Shown here piece after piece: positions 3,906 through 37,058 of a stretch of 37,115 nt of DNA. Under the pieces are notes generated by a model. The model was given only the letters and a program-made list of their open reading frames with translations. It was not told the DNA's origin and did not search any database. Origin of the DNA: an uncultured Candidatus Saccharibacteria bacterium (GTDB lineage: Bacteria; Patescibacteriota; Saccharimonadia; Saccharimonadales; Saccharimonadaceae); contig CANOTH010000009.1 of assembly GCA_947570505.1 (NCBI GenBank), forward strand, positions 1 through 37,115, in the 5' to 3' direction. Positions within the stretch are counted from its first letter, which is position 1, and every line of letters begins with the position of its first letter. The position numbers and the translations under genes are program-made.

Positions 3906-3919
3906 CTAGTTGGTGAGTG

Positions 3920-3961
3920 TCAAGAAAAAGAAATACTAATATTAGTATTTCTTTTTCTTGA
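3920..3961. terminator. Perfect 42-bp palindrome, likely bidirectional terminator
   Basis: Arms 3920-3940 and 3941-3961 are exact inverted copies (start TCAAGAAAAAGAAATAC) with no spacer. A-rich and T-rich flanks lie inside the arms, so an RNA hairpin would be followed by a U tract on either strand. It separates cassette 2 from alaS. Confidence 0.6.
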
Positions 3962-3982
3962 CCGAGATAACGCGGTTAGACT

Positions 3983-28888: not shown

Positions 28889-29008
28889 ACGTATGGTAGC
28901 CTAGAGCGAAAGCTCTATTAGCGCCGTTAAGGACTGCAAAGGTCAATCATCCTGTAGTCCAATACGGAAGGGCATATCATACAAAGGCGGATTTACTCCG
29001 CCTTTTTT
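28889..29008 (+). ncRNA. Candidate structured small RNA, about 120 nt
   Basis: Between a strong promoter and a terminator lies a segment that folds as a three-way junction. P1: GTATGGTA (28891-28898) with TATCATAC (28975-28982). P2: TAGAGC-GAAA-GCTCTA (28902-28917), a GNRA tetraloop hairpin. P3: CCGT plus GGACTGCA (28924-28938) with TGTAGTCC plus ACGG (28953-28967). A terminator AAAGGCGGA / TCCGCCTTT (28983-29005) with a T run ends it. I compared it by eye with 4.5S/SRP, 6S and tmRNA features and found none. Its last bases overlap, on the opposite strand, the 3' end of the gene at 28993-29430. Confidence 0.6.
28983..29008 (+). terminator. Rho-independent terminator of the small RNA
   Basis: Nine-pair stem AAAGGCGGA / TCCGCCTTT with a short loop and six T. 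The loop contains the stop codon (28993-28995) of the opposing gene. Confidence 0.85.
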
Positions 29009-29430
29009 GAAACGCAGAATACACTATAATACCTCAGCTTGCCACCATTACCAATTCGTCGCAGTATTACAGCAATCTCGTATCTGATACCATTAACCCT
29101 AATTTCCGAGCATAAACGGTAATAGTAGACGACTTTGGTTTTGCCGTTTATACTCTGAGCCCTAGTCGTTTCTTTTTCGTATTTAGTCGCATTAGCAACT
29201 AGTTCTGGAACGAAAGGTAAAAGATTAAGACGTAAACGTTGATCGACCTCGTTTCTACTCATACCTCTACCGTTATGAGTAGCATGGTAGAATCCGTCAG
29301 CGCTGAAAAGCACTGACTCTCCACCAAATGCTGGGCAGCACACCAGACTGTAGTTTTTATATTCCTTTCTCCTCAATGATTCTAGCTTTCGGATAGGCTT
29401 TTTGTGAGTTTCTTTAAAGACGATATTAAT
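28993..29430 (-). CDS. Small basic protein, possible barnase/RelE-like fold; unusual start
   Basis: No usual start codon fits well. A strong AGGAGG (29436-29441, minus strand) lies 6 nt before an ATT at 29428-29430, giving about 145 aa beginning with a start read as Met then NIVFKETHKKPIRKLESL; the next possible start is TTG at 29374-29376 without a Shine-Dalgarno site (127 aa). The product is rich in Lys, Arg and Tyr. Its C-terminal part (VVYYYRLCSEIRVNGIRYEIAVILRRI, then GKLRYYSVF) resembles in plan the beta sheet of small barnase/EndoU/RelE-like toxins and LPD-type phage domains, but this is a weak impression and no active site is assigned. It may be accessory DNA. Confidence 0.5.
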   Translation of the reverse strand: MNIVFKETHKKPIRKLESLRRKEYKNYSLVCCPAFGGESVLFSADGFYHATHNGRGMSRNEVDQRLRLNLLPFVPELVANATKYEKETTRAQSINGKTKVVYYYRLCSEIRVNGIRYEIAVILRRIGNGGKLRYYSVFCVSKKAE

Positions 29431-29540: not shown

Positions 29541-29579
29541 AAAATCAAAAAGCTTCACTCCTGCGAGAGAGTGAAGCTT
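29541..29579 (-). terminator. Terminator of the left surface-protein gene
   Basis: AAGCTTCACTC / GAGTGAAGCTT arms (29550-29560 and 29569-29579) followed on the minus strand by TTTTTGATTTTTT. Confidence 0.85.
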
Positions 29580-29595
29580 AAGATAGTTTCAAATA

Positions 29596-30192
29596 CTAGT
29601 CAGTAGTGGAAGCAGTTAAGACTACAGTTGCCTTGTATTCACCAGCAGGTAGACTTGAACCAGCGGTTGCTCCGAAGGCGAGCTTGGTAGTATAGACCTG
29701 CTTATCAGCATTAGTGGTCCAGCCAGCATCTGAATCTGTAACACTCACGACATCTTTGCTGCCTGTAGCTGGCACACCGAACCAGTTGCCCGTATCGTTA
29801 ACTTGGTAACCCCAAGAGTTGGTACCACCAGTTAAAGTAGTGACACCGGCAGCATCTGCAATCGCAGGGATAGAAGTATTGGTTTCGCTATTCATCAAAG
29901 CATTTCCGCTCGGAGCACTAATCTTCAATGAGTAAGCAGTAGCACTGTTGCCAGAAACTGTGACGGTTAATTCATTATCGCCAGCATTCTCACCAGTAGC
30001 GACACCGTTTAGTTTTAGGGTGCCTAGATCAACCTCAGTCTTATCGACGGCGATTGAGATAGCACCTTCAACCGTGGTTTTTACCGTGGTTTCGGTTGGT
30101 ACATCATAAGCATACGAACTCAGTGGCAATGCAGCTACACCAAGACCAGCTACAACACCTAAGACTGCGATAGCTTTTGACATTTTAGACAT
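29596..30192 (-). CDS. Phase-variable secreted surface protein B (predicted OFF)
   Basis: 198 aa. The signal peptide (1-28, MSKMSKAIAVLGVVAGLG... to SSYA) is identical in DNA to that of protein A at 31307-31909. The mature part is an all-beta, Thr/Ser/Val-rich domain with VDLGTL, TVTVSGNSATAYSLKISA, SWGYQ and AGEYKATVVLTAS, a pattern common in small secreted proteins of Saccharibacteria and reminiscent of WxL or pilin-like beta sandwiches; only one Trp motif is seen, so it is not a true WxL protein. AGGAG precedes the ATG. The promoter is incomplete: CATAAT with no -35 in this orientation of the invertible segment. Confidence 0.85.
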   Translation of the reverse strand: MSKMSKAIAVLGVVAGLGVAALPLSSYAYDVPTETTVKTTVEGAISIAVDKTEVDLGTLKLNGVATGENAGDNELTVTVSGNSATAYSLKISAPSGNALMNSETNTSIPAIADAAGVTTLTGGTNSWGYQVNDTGNWFGVPATGSKDVVSVTDSDAGWTTNADKQVYTTKLAFGATAGSSLPAGEYKATVVLTASTTD

Positions 30193-30257
30193 AAATTTCT
30201 CCTTTTGATTTTTGTCTTTTACTTGTTTATTTATATGACCTTTGTAATTGTTATTAT
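30109..30257 (-). repeat. Left 149-bp arm of the invertible segment
   Basis: Exact reverse complement of 31242-31390. Read on the minus strand it runs from five bases of the -10 box (ATAAT) through the leader and AGGAG to the last codon of the signal peptide of protein B. Divergence starts on the next base on both sides. Confidence 0.95.
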
Positions 30258-30286: not shown

Positions 30287-31189
30287 ATGTCATACCACCT
30301 AGAGCAGGTCACGTCAAAACATAGCCGTATCTATCGACAAGTAGAGAATTATTATATTTATTGTGAACAGATTCGGGGCATGAGCCCAACTACCATGATT
30401 AGCAAAGTCTATACCATTAATCAGTTCATTGCTGTTACTCGTATAACAGATTTGCGCAAACTTTCCAACCGCCAAATCTACGATTGGATTAATTACCAAT
30501 TCAGCCGAGGCAACACTGGGCGCACGATCAATGATCGCTTAGCACATCTTAGGGCAATGTTGCATTGGCAGCAAAATATGAATGTCGTAATGCCCCATTT
30601 GCAGCTGGGTCTGATCACTAAAGCTAAGGAAGTACCGCCGCGCCAAGTTTGTTTTTCACGTCAAGAAATTCAATCCGTCTTAGCTACCGCAGATATCCAA
30701 GAATGGTTGCTGATTAAACTGGCTTTCGATTGCGGTTTACGAATCAGCGAGCTGTGTAAACTACAGCTCAACCATCTTCATGATGATGGCCGCATTTCTA
30801 TTCTCGGCAAAGGCAGTAAAAGGCGGTATGCCTATCTATCGCCCGAAGTGCAGTATAAACTACAGGTCTGGATTGCCGATCATTGCATTAATAAATATCT
30901 TTGGCCTAGCCCAATTTATCCTGATCAGCCACTAGCAACCTGTACCATTCGGCAGAAAATGCGAGATGCTTTTAGTCGGGCCGGGTTCAAGGATTTTCGG
31001 CCACACGATTTGCGACATTCATATGCAACTGATCTTAAGAAAATCGGTATTCCAACCCGTAAGATTCAGGCGGGTCTTGGCCATGCCTCAGAGGCTACTA
31101 CCGAACGATACTTGAGCGATTTGATCGGCTGGGATCTTTATGAGCTCTATCAGCAGAAATATAATTACTCGTCGGTCAGTGAGTGCTAA
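30287..31189 (+). CDS. Tyrosine recombinase (XerC/D-like), predicted invertase of the surface switch
   Basis: 300 aa. An N-terminal SAM-like DNA-binding domain (about 12-100) is followed by the catalytic domain with the full set of residues: R152 (CGLRISELCKL), K175 (GKGSKRR), H240 and R243 (RPHDLRHSYATDL), H266 (GLGHAS) and the nucleophile Y275 (TERYLSD). It cuts and rejoins DNA through a Tyr-DNA link without high-energy cofactors. It sits alone between two perfect inverted repeats, so it probably inverts its own gene together with the adjacent promoter. AAAGGAG (30275-30281) sets the start; TATAAA at 30263-30268 is a weak possible -10. It is not likely to be the chromosome-dimer XerC or XerD because of this setting. 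Confidence 0.92.
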   Translation: MSYHLEQVTSKHSRIYRQVENYYIYCEQIRGMSPTTMISKVYTINQFIAVTRITDLRKLSNRQIYDWINYQFSRGNTGRTINDRLAHLRAMLHWQQNMNVVMPHLQLGLITKAKEVPPRQVCFSRQEIQSVLATADIQEWLLIKLAFDCGLRISELCKLQLNHLHDDGRISILGKGSKRRYAYLSPEVQYKLQVWIADHCINKYLWPSPIYPDQPLATCTIRQKMRDAFSRAGFKDFRPHDLRHSYATDLKKIGIPTRKIQAGLGHASEATTERYLSDLIGWDLYELYQQKYNYSSVSEC

Positions 31190-31217: not shown

Positions 31218-31246
31218 TTGACTTAAGCATAACCATCCTATATAAT
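31218..31246 (+). promoter_or_regulatory. Movable promoter of the inversion switch
   Basis: TTGACT (31218-31223), a 17-bp spacer and TATAAT (31241-31246). The -35, spacer and first T lie in the unique invertible segment; ATAAT belongs to the repeat arm. Inversion would join this -35 to the arm of gene B and leave gene A with CATAAT and no -35. Confidence 0.88.
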
Positions 31247-31390
31247 AACAATTACAAAGGTCATATAAATAAACAAGTAAAAGACAAAAATCAAAAGGAG
31301 AAATTTATGTCTAAAATGTCAAAAGCTATCGCAGTCTTAGGTGTTGTAGCTGGTCTTGGTGTAGCTGCATTGCCACTGAGTTCGTATGCT
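31242..31390 (+). repeat. Right 149-bp arm of the invertible segment
   Basis: Exact reverse complement of 30109-30257. It covers ATAAT of the -10 box, the leader, AGGAG and codons 1-28 of protein A. Perfect identity over 149 bp between genes whose mature parts differ greatly points to continuing exchange between the arms. Confidence 0.95.
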
Positions 31391-31909
31391 GCGGATGCTG
31401 ATGGTGTGATGCCACAATCCGAGAATGTCACTGTGCAAGCAGAGGTTGGCGGTTCTATCTCACTAGAAATTGCCGGTGAGACTGGTAGCAATTTCAATGC
31501 TGACACCAATACTCTCGATTTAGGTAAGATCATCGTTGGCGCCGCTGACCCAATCACTGGTGCTATCAAAGCTACTGTTTCTACTAACGAAACTTTGAAT
31601 TATGCTTTGACTATCCGTACCGCTACAACTGAAACTGCTATGAAGAATGCTAATGGTAACTCGATTCCAGCTGGCGATCCAAAGGGAACCACATCAGCTT
31701 GGGGCTATTCAACTGACAGTGGTACAACCTTCAAGCCTGTACCTGCCACTGCTACTTCACTGTTAGCGACTAATCCAGGTAGCTTGAATGGTACTGGCGA
31801 AACTGCTGCTACAGCTGATACCACCATTACCTTTGGTGTTAAGGCTGATTCTAATCAGGCTCCAGGTGTCTACTCTAACCAAGTAGTTATCACTGCTTCT
31901 GTTAAATAA
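31307..31909 (+). CDS. Phase-variable secreted surface protein A (predicted ON)
   Basis: 200 aa, starting at the ATG (31307) that follows AGGAG. The signal peptide (1-28, ending SSYA) is identical to that of protein B. The mature domain is beta-rich: VTVQAEVGGSISLEI, LDLGKIIVGA, ATVSTNETLNYALTIRT, TSAWGYSTDSG and APGVYSNQVVITASVK, in the same order as in protein B, so the two are distant paralogues with alternative mature sequences. It has no membrane anchor or LPXTG signal and probably binds partners at the surface, perhaps the DUF916-like proteins encoded downstream. A longer frame starting at 31193 is ignored because it crosses the promoter. Confidence 0.88.
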   Translation: MSKMSKAIAVLGVVAGLGVAALPLSSYAADADGVMPQSENVTVQAEVGGSISLEIAGETGSNFNADTNTLDLGKIIVGAADPITGAIKATVSTNETLNYALTIRTATTETAMKNANGNSIPAGDPKGTTSAWGYSTDSGTTFKPVPATATSLLATNPGSLNGTGETAATADTTITFGVKADSNQAPGVYSNQVVITASVK

Positions 31910-31930
31910 TCTATATAATATAGTACAATT

Positions 31931-31962
31931 AATCCCGTCCTCTCGCAGGGGCGGGATTTTTG
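31931..31962 (+). terminator. Terminator of surface gene A
   Basis: AATCCCGTCC pairs with GGGCGGGATT around TCTCGCA, with a T run. The loop CTCTCGCAGG resembles that of the gene B terminator. Confidence 0.85.
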
Positions 31963-31972
31963 CGTTTATGAC

Positions 31973-32001
31973 TTGAAAACCCAGATATGATGATATATAA
32001 T
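31973..32001 (+). promoter_or_regulatory. Promoter of the surface-complex genes
   Basis: TTGAAA (31973-31978), a 17-bp spacer and TATAAT (31996-32001), followed by a leader of about 15 nt with AGGAGGT before the ATG at 32022. The downstream genes can thus be made whichever surface gene is on. Confidence 0.85.
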
Positions 32002-32021
32002 GAAAGGAAATAAGGAGGTAA

Positions 32022-32987
32022 ATGAAAGTTTTTCAAAGAGTTAGCAGTGTTTTGTGCGGCATGTTTTTAGCAATGAGCATGATCGTACTTAACCATAGTG
32101 CGGTTTTTGCCGAAGATAAGCAGCCAGAGTACCGTTTACAGGTTTCACCCGCCAAGCAAGATATTGGCGATCTTAAGCCCGGTGAATCTTATGCTGGTGC
32201 ATTTAAGGTGCAGAACACCGGCAAAAATTCTTTTGATTTTAAGGTTAGTGCATCCCCATATAGTGTGAAGGATGAACTCTATTCGCCGGAATATGATAAA
32301 AACAGTCAGTATACCGATATTGTCAACTGGATCAAGTTCTCTGCTACTACTGGACATGTAGATCCTAATCAAGAGCAGGAAATTGCTTATACGATCAAGG
32401 TTCCATCCGATGTCCCGGCTGGTGGTCAGTATTTAGCCATCACCGTCGAGCTGACCAATACTGGTACCACCGAAGGCTCTGGAGTGGCGATCACTCAGCA
32501 AGTTGGCTCTATTGTCTATGCTAACGTTCATGGTAATACTCGCAAGACCGGAGAGGTTATCGAAAATAAGATCCCTACCATTCTCTTTAATCCTCCAGTA
32601 TCTACTACCTCGATCGTCAACAATACTGGTAATACTCATGCTACAGCTAGCTACATCCTAGAGGTTTGTCCATTGTTTAGCGGTAAAGCTTCAGATGGTA
32701 CTCTCTGTGACGAAGAAGTTTACACCAACCGTGAAAACCCTGATACTCTTACAATCTTGCCCGAGACTCGTCGTTTTAATACTATTACTTGGCCAGGATC
32801 TCCAAAGCTGGGTATCTTCCGGGTTCGTCAGACTGTCAGTATGTTTGATCAGACCTCCACGGTAGAGAAAGTTGTCTTCTTGTGTCCGATTTGGTTTGCG
32901 TTTATCATCATATTACTCATCTTCTGCGCAGTATTTTGGATCATTACCCGTGTTCGTGCTCGGAGTCGCGACAATAGAAGTGAATAA
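32022..32987 (+). CDS. DUF916/WxL-interacting-like surface protein 1
   Basis: 321 aa: signal peptide (1-30, ending VFA), two Ig-like beta domains and a C-terminal membrane helix (about 289-309) with a short basic tail. YRLQVSPAKQDIGDLKPGESYAGAFKVQNTG and VPSDVPAGGQYLAITVELTNTG...SGVAITQQVGSIV match the pattern of DUF916-type proteins, which in lactic acid bacteria bind peptidoglycan and WxL proteins. Three cysteines occur in the second half. It is a paralogue of the next gene, sharing the VPxDVPxGxQY and GNTxxTxE motifs. It likely anchors or presents the switchable secreted proteins, though this rests on gene order only. Confidence 0.82.
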   Translation: MKVFQRVSSVLCGMFLAMSMIVLNHSAVFAEDKQPEYRLQVSPAKQDIGDLKPGESYAGAFKVQNTGKNSFDFKVSASPYSVKDELYSPEYDKNSQYTDIVNWIKFSATTGHVDPNQEQEIAYTIKVPSDVPAGGQYLAITVELTNTGTTEGSGVAITQQVGSIVYANVHGNTRKTGEVIENKIPTILFNPPVSTTSIVNNTGNTHATASYILEVCPLFSGKASDGTLCDEEVYTNRENPDTLTILPETRRFNTITWPGSPKLGIFRVRQTVSMFDQTSTVEKVVFLCPIWFAFIIILLIFCAVFWIITRVRARSRDNRSE

Positions 32988-33017
32988 AATTATCTTGAAG
33001 AAGCGGAGGTAAAAAGA

Positions 33018-34013
33018 ATGAAGAGAAAAATTTTAAGCCTGGCGCTAGCCACCATTTTAGTAGGCTTTGGTGCACTAGGCATGCCGAGACAGGTTTATGC
33101 TGACGAAGGTAACGAAGAAGATAAACCGACCACTTCTTTACAGATTTCCCCTACAGCCGTAACGGTCACTTTGATGGGTGGAGATGTACTCAGTGGTACG
33201 AGTGAGCGCTGCCCTAAGGACGTTGAAGGTGGCTGTGTAGTGCAGGTTAAGAATGTTGGTACCCAGAGCTTCCGCTATCGCGTCTATGCCTCGCCCTATG
33301 TTGTATCTGGCGAAGATTACCAGCTAGATTTTTCCGAAAGTGCATCCACCTCGTATACTCAAATTTCACGTTGGATCACTTTTAAGAACCCGGAGGGGAA
33401 TTACGAGTCAGAGGCCATTTATACAATTAATCCCGGAGAAACCCAAGTCATCGATTATCGCATTTCCGTACCAGAAGATGTTCCTGGAGGCGCGCAGTAT
33501 GCTGTAGTTTGGGCACAAACCTTGAGCGAAGGCGGCAGCGGTGTGCAAACAATTTCTCAAGCGGGGATGGTAATTTCTGGTCGTTCTATTGGTAATACCA
33601 AGCAAACCGCCGAAATTTTAGAATATGGTTTTACTCGGTTTGCGGTAGGCGGCAGTCTCAAAGCCAATGCTACAATTAAGAATACTGGTAATACAGATTT
33701 CGATGCCTATTATTACTACACAGCTAGAACAATTTTTGGTAAGGAGTTGAAGACTCTCTCGGGTTCGGTTTCAACCTTCCCAGACACCGAGTATCACGTG
33801 AACCTAGATTGGGACGAACCGCCGCTAATGGGCATTTTCCAAGTAGAATTCAAGGTTAATGCTGCCGACACTATCCGGGACGAAAAGCACATTGTGATCA
33901 TCATGCCGATTTTCATGATAGTTATTATAATTTTGTTGTTGACAGTCATAATTGTTTGGACTATAATCATAATCAGAAAGCGCAAAGAGCGCAAAGCCCG
34001 CACGTTAGTGTAG
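33018..34013 (+). CDS. DUF916/WxL-interacting-like surface protein 2
   Basis: 331 aa with the same plan: signal peptide (1-28, ending VYA), two beta domains and a C-terminal membrane helix (about 293-319) with a strongly basic tail (RKRKERKARTLV). LQISPTAVTVTLMGGDVLSG opens the first domain; VPEDVPGGAQYAVVWAQTLSEGGSGVQTISQAG is the shared core. One pair of cysteines (SERCPKDVEGGCVV) could form a disulfide. GGAGGT lies 9 nt before the ATG; the 30-bp gap after its paralogue indicates one operon. Probably arose by tandem duplication. Confidence 0.82.
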   Translation: MKRKILSLALATILVGFGALGMPRQVYADEGNEEDKPTTSLQISPTAVTVTLMGGDVLSGTSERCPKDVEGGCVVQVKNVGTQSFRYRVYASPYVVSGEDYQLDFSESASTSYTQISRWITFKNPEGNYESEAIYTINPGETQVIDYRISVPEDVPGGAQYAVVWAQTLSEGGSGVQTISQAGMVISGRSIGNTKQTAEILEYGFTRFAVGGSLKANATIKNTGNTDFDAYYYYTARTIFGKELKTLSGSVSTFPDTEYHVNLDWDEPPLMGIFQVEFKVNAADTIRDEKHIVIIMPIFMIVIIILLLTVIIVWTIIIIRKRKERKARTLV

Positions 34014-34038
34014 TGGAATTCACTAATAGCTGGGCGAT

Positions 34039-34081
34039 ACCGTGATACTATTGCGAGTAGTATTCTGCGAGACGGTAGCTC
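34039..34081 (+). promoter_or_regulatory. Nested hairpin in the leader of the LPNTG gene
   Basis: Outer arms TACCGT / ACGGTA enclose inner arms ATACTA / TAGTAT with a TTGCGAG loop; GCGAG is repeated in the inner loop and the 3' bulge. There is no T run, so a processing or attenuation site is more likely than a terminator. Confidence 0.5.
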
Positions 34082-34124
34082 TAAGCAAATTCAAAATAAA
34101 AACTAAAAAGAAAGAGTGTAGAGT

Positions 34125-35081
34125 ATGCAAAAGACACAAAAGCAACTTTTAGGGCTTGCAGGTTTGGCGGCGGTCGGCATTATGACTGCTACTGCATATA
34201 TGATCCCAGCGCCGAACGCAGCGGCGGAAGCCGGTAATGGTGTTTATACTGAAGCCCCAGAGGCAGGTGAAGATTTTCAGGTAAATGTGACTGTTGAGAC
34301 CGGTCAAACGTCTTCATCCACCAATTCGCCTGCTGATGGTCAAGAGTTTAATACTAATCTTGTCCCAGTTAGCATCCGCTACGAGCGCATTAGCCGACTA
34401 GTCAGCACACTAAGCTTTATTGATGAGTCTGGTGTTGCACAGGAAAAAGTCGTAGACGATTTCGTACCAACTGGAGCTGCTAAAGATTCAGGTATACGTA
34501 CGTTCAATATTGATTTAGGACAGTATAAAAGCAAGGACAATCAATACAAACTCACAACTCAGGCCTACAACTTTGAGGGGCAAGCTATTCCGGCTGATGT
34601 GACAAAATTTAGTTATACTTCAACGATTGTCACCCCAGAGCCAAAGCCAGAAGAAGGCGGTAATCCATTCATCGAAATCGATGTAAATGACGATGTGGAA
34701 AAAGTTGTTATCCAGATTTATGATAAAGATGGTAATCCGATCTTAGTTGATAAGGACGGTAAAGAAACTCCAATCATTATTGACAAAAGTGCTTTTGGCG
34801 AAGATGGTAAGCTGAAGGTAGAATTACCACTAGACAAGTATGGAGTCAAAGAGGGAGAATATACGGTTGTAGTGGATGCTTATGACAAAAATGGCAACAT
34901 CATCTCTGTAAAAACTACACCAGTCGAATATACTCCAGCTACTCCAGAATTACCAAACACTGGTAGTCTAGTTGGCGAACTAAATATTTCTCGTCTGGAT
35001 TATATCGTAACTGGATTAATCGCTTTCGCTTTAATCTCTGGTTTCGCGGTCTATCTCGCACTACGCAAGAGCCGTCGCTAG
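34125..35081 (+). CDS. LPXTG-type (LPNTG) sortase-anchored surface protein
   Basis: 318 aa: signal peptide (about 1-35), beta-rich repeats with negatively charged loops (IYDKDGNPILVDKDGKETPI and VDAYDKNGNIISVKTTPVEY are similar units), a Pro/Thr spacer, and a complete cell-wall sorting signal: LPNTG at about 276-280, a hydrophobic stretch and the tail RKSRR. Sortase would link it to the wall; no sortase gene is present here. The order of small beta-rich secreted proteins, two DUF916-like proteins and an LPXTG protein resembles the WxL gene clusters of lactic acid bacteria. Confidence 0.88.
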   Translation: MQKTQKQLLGLAGLAAVGIMTATAYMIPAPNAAAEAGNGVYTEAPEAGEDFQVNVTVETGQTSSSTNSPADGQEFNTNLVPVSIRYERISRLVSTLSFIDESGVAQEKVVDDFVPTGAAKDSGIRTFNIDLGQYKSKDNQYKLTTQAYNFEGQAIPADVTKFSYTSTIVTPEPKPEEGGNPFIEIDVNDDVEKVVIQIYDKDGNPILVDKDGKETPIIIDKSAFGEDGKLKVELPLDKYGVKEGEYTVVVDAYDKNGNIISVKTTPVEYTPATPELPNTGSLVGELNISRLDYIVTGLIAFALISGFAVYLALRKSRR

Positions 35082-35093
35082 ATAAAGTCACAC

Positions 35094-35128
35094 AAGAAAA
35101 TAATACCCCACTGGGGTATTATTTTCTT
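35094..35128. terminator. Perfect inverted-repeat terminator
   Basis: Arms of 17 bp (starting AAGAAAATAATACCCCA, 35094-35110) mirror each other around a single C. A-rich and T-rich ends allow termination in both directions. Confidence 0.85.
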
Positions 35129-35173
35129 ATCAAGATCAATGAATTTGCTTATGCATAAAATATGTTACTATAC

Positions 35174-35202
35174 TTGACTTTTAAGAACCTACGTTATAGA
35201 AT
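35174..35202 (+). promoter_or_regulatory. Promoter of the acidic surface protein gene
   Basis: TTGACT (35174-35179), a 17-bp spacer and TAGAAT (35197-35202), with a GGGAG ribosome binding site near 35224-35228. Confidence 0.75.
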
Positions 35203-35238
35203 GGGGTAAATTAGGAAAGATTTGGGAGAAAATAAGAT

Positions 35239-35949
35239 ATGAATGGAATTCGTCTGGCTTTAGTCGCCATCTTGGCAGTGGCAATAGCTAGCATACCGAT
35301 GGACAGCTATGCTGATGGTGCAAATACCTCAGATGATGTTACAGCGGACAGCCAGATAGTGGCAAGTGCCCCTGGCGAAACTCCGGATCCTGATGCACCT
35401 GATGATACGGATGGCTCTGGCGAACCAGGTTCTGAAGATTCGGGCGATTCTGATGGCCCTGGTACGGGCACTACAGAGAATGAACCAGAAGCCTCAGAGG
35501 GCATGGGCAGCGGTGTCAATGGTGACGAAGCTGGTATGGGTGAGTACGAGCCAGATCCTACCGTAAGTGATGATTCCGGTTCAGCCGATCAAACCCCAAA
35601 TGACACTACTCATAAAAATGATTCTAATCGCAATGATGGCGCTGGATCTAGTAATAGCGCAGACGGCAATTCTTCTAACGATCAATCGTCCGATCATCCT
35701 GATGCCGGCAACACTGAGGGGAACGAAAACCCGGATAATGAGAGCACATCGCTGCCCAAGGCTCCTAGTAGTGATGCTTCAAAGGTTAACTCCAAAGAGG
35801 ACAAGTCTGAAGGCAATAGCTGGGATAAGTTCATGCGGATTATAGCAGTTGTCTTGTTGGCTATTGCGATTTTGACTATTACCATTGCTTTAGTCGTGCG
35901 TGGGCTTGCCCGTCGCCGCGAAAACAAAGAAAAACAGCAGTTTGATTAA
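35239..35949 (+). CDS. Acidic Ser/Asp/Gly-rich stalk-like surface protein
   Basis: 236 aa: signal peptide (1-25, ending SYA), a long low-complexity region (about 26-190) of Asp, Ser, Gly, Glu, Pro and Asn with short SD/DG-type repeats, and a C-terminal membrane helix (about 201-220) with a basic tail. It has no fold motif; the composition resembles Ser-Asp stalks that hold adhesins away from the cell. SLPKAP before the membrane helix is not a valid LPXTG signal. It is the last gene of the surface region, with its own promoter after a strong terminator. Confidence 0.78.
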   Translation: MNGIRLALVAILAVAIASIPMDSYADGANTSDDVTADSQIVASAPGETPDPDAPDDTDGSGEPGSEDSGDSDGPGTGTTENEPEASEGMGSGVNGDEAGMGEYEPDPTVSDDSGSADQTPNDTTHKNDSNRNDGAGSSNSADGNSSNDQSSDHPDAGNTEGNENPDNESTSLPKAPSSDASKVNSKEDKSEGNSWDKFMRIIAVVLLAIAILTITIALVVRGLARRRENKEKQQFD

Positions 35950-36124: not shown

Positions 36125-36149
36125 AATAGACACTTACGTGTCTATTTTT
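36125..36149 (+). terminator. Terminator after tRNA-Val
   Basis: AATAGACAC / GTGTCTATT with a TTAC loop and a T run. Confidence 0.88.
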
Positions 36150-36384
36150 GTTGATTTAAAGATCGGCACCGAACCGCGACATAGGATAGGCGGACGGGGA
36201 AACCGTTCCAACGATTGTTCGGGCCGTGGGACGGGCGAGACTCTGAGGTATTAAACTCAAACCAGTAAGAGTTAGCCAAGGTCGCAGAGGAGTAAGCTAC
36301 AGAGGTACGCGACCAGTCGTAGCCAATGTTGCCCGAGTTCCTCAGTGAGCCGTTGTTCAAGTTGACGTTCCCGCTACGGACGAA
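36142..36384 (-). other. Variable-region cassette 4, asparagine-rich with a different tail
   Basis: Minus-strand translation opens FVRSGNVNLNNGSLRNSG and reaches RWNGFPVR, then departs from the other copies (LSYVAVRCRSLNQQK-stop at 36142). It has eleven Asn codons (AAC or AAT) in about 70 codons, at many of the sites that vary in other copies, so it is the most template-like. A nominal TTG start near 36414 adds SLVPFQYFVRSG, where PFQYFVRSG may be a remnant of the body domain, but a stop lies a few codons further upstream. Confidence 0.7.
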
Positions 36385-36680
36385 GTACTGGAATGGAACC
36401 AGCGAGGTAGTCAATAGAAAAGCTATGAAGCCGGACTATCAGCCACAGCAAAAACGGTCAGAAATAGAATAGTCGTCAGGTTTAGAAGTTGATTTTAAGG
36501 CCCTAAGCCTTGGATTAGGGTGCATTCTAGCCTCTATAACTCTTTTGTAAGCTATGCAGAGGATAACTTCACGATCTTTATATGATTCAGGGAGCTGCTG
36601 GGAGCTGGAGCCAAAACCTCAAAATAGCCCCTTTAGATCCCATAAGCCTTAGGCTTACTAACTCATTTTATCACGTTCAA
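36385..36680. other. Region between cassettes 4 and 5
   Basis: No gene is seen. It holds a hairpin CCCTAA / TTAGGG (about 36502-36521) and a small palindrome TAAGCCTTAGGCTTA (about 36646-36660). The last bases (ACTAGTATACC) begin the 3' flank shared with cassette 3. Confidence 0.5.
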
Positions 36681-36887
36681 CTAGTATACCAAACAGCGGA
36701 CGGGGCGACCGTTCCAACGATTGTAGTTAGCCGACGGGTAAACACCTGAAGGATTGAAGTAGAGGCTGTAAGCATTAGCTGAGGTAGGTGACGAGTAAGG
36801 TTTAGCAGCCCGCGACCAACTGTAGCCAGAGCTGCCGAAGTCTCTCAGAGCACTATTACCAAGATTAACCCACCCGCTACGGACGAA
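36681..36887 (-). other. Stand-alone variable-region cassette 5
   Basis: Minus-strand translation runs FVRSGWVNLGNSALRDFG through YSSPTSANAYSLYFNPSG to RWNGRPVRCLVY-stop (36681-36683). It is the closest relative of cassette 3; the differences are mainly first- and second-base changes in codons ending in C or T. An open frame continues upstream to about 37034, but that part (MTFALGYRFF...) crosses hairpins and shows no FISUMP features. Confidence 0.75.
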
Positions 36888-37058
36888 AAAGGACTGCAAA
36901 TAGTGCAAAAAGTATCTTCTGTACAGGTTTACGTTTTTTAAAAAGTGTAAACCACACTTATCACACATAACAGGGTCAAGACGAAATTTTAGGCTATCAC
37001 TTTTGAAAAAACGATAGCCTAAAGCAAACGTCAATTTATATGACTAAATTAGCATTAC
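36888..37058. other. Spacer between cassettes 5 and 6 with two hairpins
   Basis: GGTTTAC / GTAAACC (about 36918-36947) and an 11-bp stem TTTAGGCTATC / GATAGCCTAAA (36988-36998 and 37013-37023) are the only structures. Nothing gene-like is seen. Confidence 0.5.

Follow-up and report, generated by a model that had tools for sequence, protein, structure and literature searches.

The means by which Patescibacteria attach to their hosts and select them are still an open question, and the locus described here raises a narrower one within it: whether small secreted proteins, putative membrane anchors and a cell-wall sorting protein encoded in a row form a surface module comparable to the WxL clusters of Lactobacillales, and whether a neighboring recombinase switches part of that module. 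WxL clusters of Lactobacillales contain a small WxL protein, a large WxL protein, a WxLIP (DUF916 and DUF3324 domains plus a transmembrane helix) and often an LPxTG protein (PMC10599100, PMC9772566), and models of the WxLIP-WxL complex have a WxLIP strand completing the incomplete WxL sandwich (PMC10599100). We evaluated these questions in the window, i.e., the whole stretch of 37,115 nucleotides analyzed, which is contig C9 of a 72-contig, 1.23 Mb genome of an uncultured, ultra-small and host-dependent Candidatus Saccharibacteria bacterium, an assembly to be read with its fragmentation and estimated contamination of ~6.5% in mind and with the caveat that long repeats can mislead assembly.

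Gene layout and the putative inversion switch

Downstream (3') of uvrA, the locus comprises gene A on the minus strand followed by a tyrosine recombinase gene, B, D1, D2, LP and AC, all six on the plus strand, and the span (31307-35949) and order given in the earlier note (small secreted proteins, two DUF916-like proteins, an LPNTG protein) are correct. A (29596-30192, minus strand, 198 aa) and B (31307-31909, plus strand, 200 aa) encode alternative small secreted proteins of one family, here termed S, and each gene is followed by a predicted intrinsic terminator (29550-29579, minus strand, for A; 31931-31958, plus strand, for B). Their 5' ends lie in inverted repeats that are perfect over 149 nt (30109-30257 and 31242-31390; 0 mismatches between the arms), taking in the edge of the −10 box, the 5' UTR and, with the signal peptide codons, 84 nt at the start of the coding sequence, and A and B diverge abruptly where the repeats end. 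Within the segment that the repeats flank lies the recombinase gene (30287-31189, plus strand, 300 aa; PF00589, E 7.4e-29), intact and with a complete catalytic set (R..K..HxxR..H..Y), together with the sole strong promoter available to either S gene (TTGACT-17-TATAAT, 31218-31246, plus strand), where promoters throughout are matches to the consensus. At present this promoter would drive B, leaving A without a strong one; because its −35 box and spacer sit inside the segment, inversion would pass it to A, and when we flipped the segment in silico A gained an identical promoter. The sequence features expected of an inverton, inverted repeats around a segment with a promoter and a site-specific recombinase, are present.

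Relatives place this arrangement in a wider context. Two loci lacking the switch (L030, of genome G039, and L064) carry a nearly identical promoter before their single S gene, which makes it likely that the switch took over an ancestral S promoter. One relative (G042, locus L031) has the same switch layout with a stop codon in the recombinase and 8 mismatches over 122 nt of repeat, and a second form of switch in the genus consists of two divergent S-m-D operons with the recombinase between or beside them. Among 13 loci with divergent S pairs, 12 (the window, G042 and ten others) had a strong promoter on one side and not on the other; the side that had it was, as read, the right in eight and the left in four and differed among species; L119 had a weaker second promoter candidate and L024 had none. 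Shuffled upstream sequences, our control, reached a score of at least 5.5 in 3 of 66 cases. The loci of the second form are L023, L025, L026, L027, L028, L029, L055, L094, L119 and L139, with repeats perfect over up to 133 nt (L055). A motif common to both switch types, AAAGGTYATA, was considered as the recombinase core, but loci with no switch have it too, upstream of S, so it may instead be a 5' UTR element.

The anchor genes appear to be transcribed apart from the switch. The terminator behind B is followed by a separate promoter (TTGAAA-17-TATAAT, 31973-32001, plus strand) ahead of D1, and across 38 S-D pairs a terminator lay between S and D in 29 and a good promoter in 21. Two proposals of the earlier note, that the soluble component is switchable and that the anchors have a constant promoter, are thus borne out at the level of sequence: the switch as predicted would act here on the small secreted component only, and in the second form on a whole operon. 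A further match to the sigma-70 consensus (12/12), at 33939-33967, falls within the transmembrane codons of D2, 158 nt ahead of LP; it may be either an internal promoter or a coincidence.

Anchor proteins, small secreted proteins and their neighbors

The product of D1 (32022-32987, plus strand) has a signal peptide, a pair of Ig-like domains and, at its C-terminus, a transmembrane helix, and D2 (33018-34013, plus strand), which starts 30 nt after D1, is a paralogue with the same architecture. When searched as single sequences against Pfam, D1 matched PF06030 at E=0.02 (15.3 bits versus a curated cut-off of 27.3), D2 did not match PF06030, and PF11797 (HBD) matched neither, though the D1 model has a second Ig-like domain. 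Family-level searches were stronger: PF06030 was the Pfam family hit most often by D proteins (49 of 67; best 3.8e-5), and hmmsearch of the D-family profile, which matches D2 at 1.4e-59, against the PDB retrieved the E. faecium WxLIP chain (EfmWxLIP1) at E=6.4e-5. With hhalign, the D family and actinobacterial DUF916 proteins aligned across 261 columns at 99.2%, and an enterococcal WxLIP that is a genuine DUF916-DUF3324 protein was matched at 91.8% in its first domain. The AF2 model of D1 (pLDDT 93.5) comprises two beta-sandwich (Ig-like) domains and a transmembrane helix at residues 290-319, and its top solved structure was the E. faecium WxLIP (9i1y/9i25; Foldseek 5.7e-13). VIA aligned 227 residues of D1 with 9i1y at Z 13.8 and an rmsd of 8.6, the latter suggesting that the inter-domain angle differs, and its runners-up were PapD-type chaperones (PapD, CsuC and FimC; Z 11-12). 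The NQIDKxxxYFDLK motif is absent from D1, in which the aligned place reads LQVSPAKQDIGDLKPGE. Judged by family profiles and predicted fold, D1 and D2 are distant relatives of WxLIP (DUF916), so the earlier description of two DUF916-like proteins was right, weakly by single-sequence score and solidly by profile and model.

The small proteins tell a different story from that of a WxL cluster. S is a large, fast-evolving family of which we collected 127 distinct members including A and B; the mature parts of A and B are 30% identical, and mature S proteins of close relatives share 27-42% identity (one pair 74%), as against 61-67% between the window's D1 and the D1 of the two nearest species. The WxL family PF13731 matched neither A nor B nor any of 72 S members, no WxL domain was found in the source genome, the paired WxL motifs are absent from A and B, and none of the 127 S proteins has a WxL motif near its C-terminus. 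A broad S profile aligned with true WxL proteins at 18-28% probability, and there over the last strand only (~30 residues). On these sequence tests we rejected the idea that S is a WxL domain. When B was modeled with AF2 (pLDDT 83, most of the mature core exceeding 90), the model found its best solved matches in chaperone-usher pilin subunits (CfaB, 3.3e-5; CsuA/B, Z 8.4), although a Z of ~8 is modest and within the range of common arrangements; no WxL chain was among the PDB matches listed for B, an absence that carries no weight either way, and the S profile had no significant match in the PDB (best CsuE, 0.31). By its predicted model, then, B looks like a pilin subunit, and of the suggestion that these are small beta-rich secreted proteins as in WxL clusters, the beta-rich part holds for the model of B and the WxL part fails by every sequence test.

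Two further genes follow the anchors. LP (34125-35081, plus strand) encodes a putative cell-wall sorting protein with all parts of the signal (LPNTG..RKSRR: an LPxTG-type motif, a hydrophobic transmembrane stretch and a basic tail), a perfect hairpin 3' of it (35094-35128, plus strand) is a candidate terminator, and the source genome has two sortase genes (PF04203). The sorting protein noted earlier is therefore present here, but a strict LPxTG motif had to give way to xPxTG for the family, which occurs in 29 of its 31 distinct members, with Leu first in two. AC (35239-35949, plus strand; own promoter 35174-35202) encodes an Asp/Ser/Gly-rich, stalk-like, acidic protein with a signal peptide and a transmembrane segment. 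Profile search yielded no homologue of AC, and stalk-like proteins of similar composition and build stand at its position in L030 and L031; with positional look-alikes only, we dropped it as a conserved member, and whether AC is part of the module is uncertain.

Gene order in relatives and likeness to known systems

The earlier note had named gene order in relatives as a check on the module and its lack of conservation, coupled with no predicted interaction, as grounds for giving it up; the order proved to be conserved. In 100 non-redundant loci, an S protein or an m protein (the latter normally preceded by S) was encoded directly upstream of D for 99 of 114 D genes, and in 28 of 29 cases D2 stood directly 3' of D, a regularity well in excess of chance. 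No Pfam match was obtained for the type II m protein. Many Saccharibacteria share the order S-D1-D2-LP, and S-D adjacency is kept in other classes of Patescibacteria, in some of which large proteins beside D carry an S domain in their last ~150-200 residues. Members of the D profile were found in 97 of 239 sampled genomes of the phylum. The 78 named relatives of the D1 family are all Candidatus Saccharibacteria, mainly from ruminant-gut and other metagenome-assembled genomes, plus a single cell of oral taxon 351. Large proteins of this kind, ending in an S domain and adjoining D, are seen at L157, L158, L160, L162, L166, L167, L171 and L172, all from other classes, and the source genome itself has an unswitched S-D pair elsewhere (contig C57, L039) and an S-domain match within a 620-aa frame (contig C27, L174).

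Set beside WxL clusters, the locus shares a small secreted beta protein immediately upstream of a DUF916-type, C-terminally membrane-anchored protein with two Ig domains, much as the Enterococcus WxL gene lies directly upstream of the DUF916-DUF3324 gene; it also shares a sortase-type protein, and the large S forms of other Patescibacteria recall large WxL proteins. It differs in that S has neither WxL motifs nor PF13731, that D1 lacks NQIDKxxxYFDLK and PF11797, that D1 and D2 stand in tandem, that the sorting motif is xPxTG, that S is under an inversion switch, and that small S forms occur here with no large S. The actinobacterial DUF916 pairs of Clavibacter, Cellulosimicrobium, Arthrobacter and Curtobacterium plasmids likewise place a small secreted protein immediately 5' of a membrane protein of DUF916 type. 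In Curtobacterium this small protein matches PF13731 at E 4.2e-6 and in Arthrobacter at 0.0023; S has no significant similarity to the small proteins of these pairs. With chaperone-usher systems the predicted models share the folds of pilin (B) and PapD-type chaperone (D1), except that D is membrane-anchored and closer to WxLIP. Among invertons, fimS of E. coli, the RecV-controlled switches of C. difficile and the surface loci of Bacteroides resemble the window in tyrosine recombinase, inverted repeats, a promoter within the invertible segment and a surface-protein target, whereas here the recombinase gene is inside the segment, the repeats include signal-peptide codons, and two alternative proteins would be swapped rather than one turned on or off. 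The description of the locus as WxL-cluster-like therefore stands for the anchors, as WxLIP/DUF916 relatives, and for the conserved order, and falls for the small proteins, which are not WxL domains: as far as sequence reaches, the working is WxL-cluster-like, yet demonstrable kinship extends to the anchor half only.

Competing explanations and what they would mean

The module, its gene order, repeats, promoters and terminators being established as sequence features, we consider it probable that they amount to a Saccharibacteria surface display module of WxL-cluster-like build, under an invertible-promoter switch that chooses A or B. Under this reading, the tyrosine recombinase would invert the ~1 kb segment carrying its own gene and the one strong promoter, so that either A or B is transcribed, and the identical 5' UTR and signal peptide would have both exported alike, though 70% of their mature residues differ. 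D1 and D2, as predicted membrane-anchored two-domain Ig-like holders made constitutively together with LP, would hold the S protein at the surface, probably by donating a beta strand to it in the manner proposed for WxLIP and WxL; since a WxLIP strand completes the WxL sandwich in models of that pair, and a pilin-like S here adjoins a PapD-like D, we infer a similar strand-donating partnership. Inversion in cells would then vary the surface met by the host, by phage or by the animal gut, and host contact and the evasion of phage or of immunity are candidate purposes of such variation.

The same folds admit a pilus, in which S proteins are fibre subunits polymerizing by donor-strand exchange, D is a membrane-tethered, PapD-shaped assembly chaperone and not a holder of individual S molecules, and the switch chooses the pilin. 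The pilin matches of B, the chaperone matches of D1 and the separate transcription of S and D speak for this idea, but WxLIP rather than a chaperone heads the matches of D1, the similarity score of B is one that common arrangements reach, and D has a transmembrane helix, leaving a pilus improbable to our minds. Somewhat less credible still is that the holder module is as we describe while the switch is a relic, with A and B a duplicated pair whose 5' ends are kept identical by homologous gene conversion after inversion ceased. The broken recombinase and partly decayed repeats of G042 show the same layout in such a condition, whereas in the window the recombinase is intact and the repeats are perfect, and promoters stand on one side only, in both handednesses across species. 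That the resemblance to WxL clusters reflects convergence on common Ig-like folds, with D1, D2 and LP as surface proteins of no shared origin and S independent of D, draws on the sub-threshold single-sequence Pfam scores and the similar scores of many Ig-like families; we give it very little credence, as WxLIP ranks first in both profile and fold searches, hhalign matches DUF916 proteins over the whole length, and S-D adjacency extends across classes.

Elements of the display module and of the pilus meet in a bolder conjecture, which we offer as speculative: S-D may be a surface system of ancient origin, spread across Patescibacteria, whose membrane-tethered, PapD-shaped relative of WxLIP completes or assembles pilin-like S subunits by strand donation, placed in Saccharibacteria under promoter inversion in two forms (an S-only swap and a whole-operon swap) that vary the structure touching the host. 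Returning to the display module itself, WxLIP-like holders and invertible promoters are each known, and what is new is their combination, their occurrence in Patescibacteria and the non-WxL partner; in the part of the literature covered, neither Saccharibacteria nor Patescibacteria at large are reported to show phase variation by inversion, nor is DUF916 or WxL reported from Saccharibacteria. A conserved two-part module with a switch that swaps only its fast-evolving outer part would let the question of host attachment and choice be approached through named genes and through an ON/OFF state that can be tested. If true, it would take the WxL/WxLIP idea outside the Gram-positive bacteria as well, with a hint that strand complementation of the WxL type is linked to that of pilins and their chaperones.

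Elsewhere in the window, a perfect 44-nt palindrome lies at 3919-3962, and an ORF between uvrA and A (28993-29376, minus strand) carries a Large polyvalent protein-associated domain 3 (PF18798, 7.1e-8). Behind tRNA-Val are two short, related, repeat-joined ORFs (36142-36414 and 36681-37034, minus strand) with lectin/FISUMP-like tails (..NRWNGxPVRC..), and similar fragments occur after LP in L030 and near the D loci L033, L058 and L039. In the source genome a tail of similar kind ends a 609-aa protein (L174:2606-4435), and reverse transcriptase is encoded twice (L182, L183); together these make a diversity-generating system conceivable.
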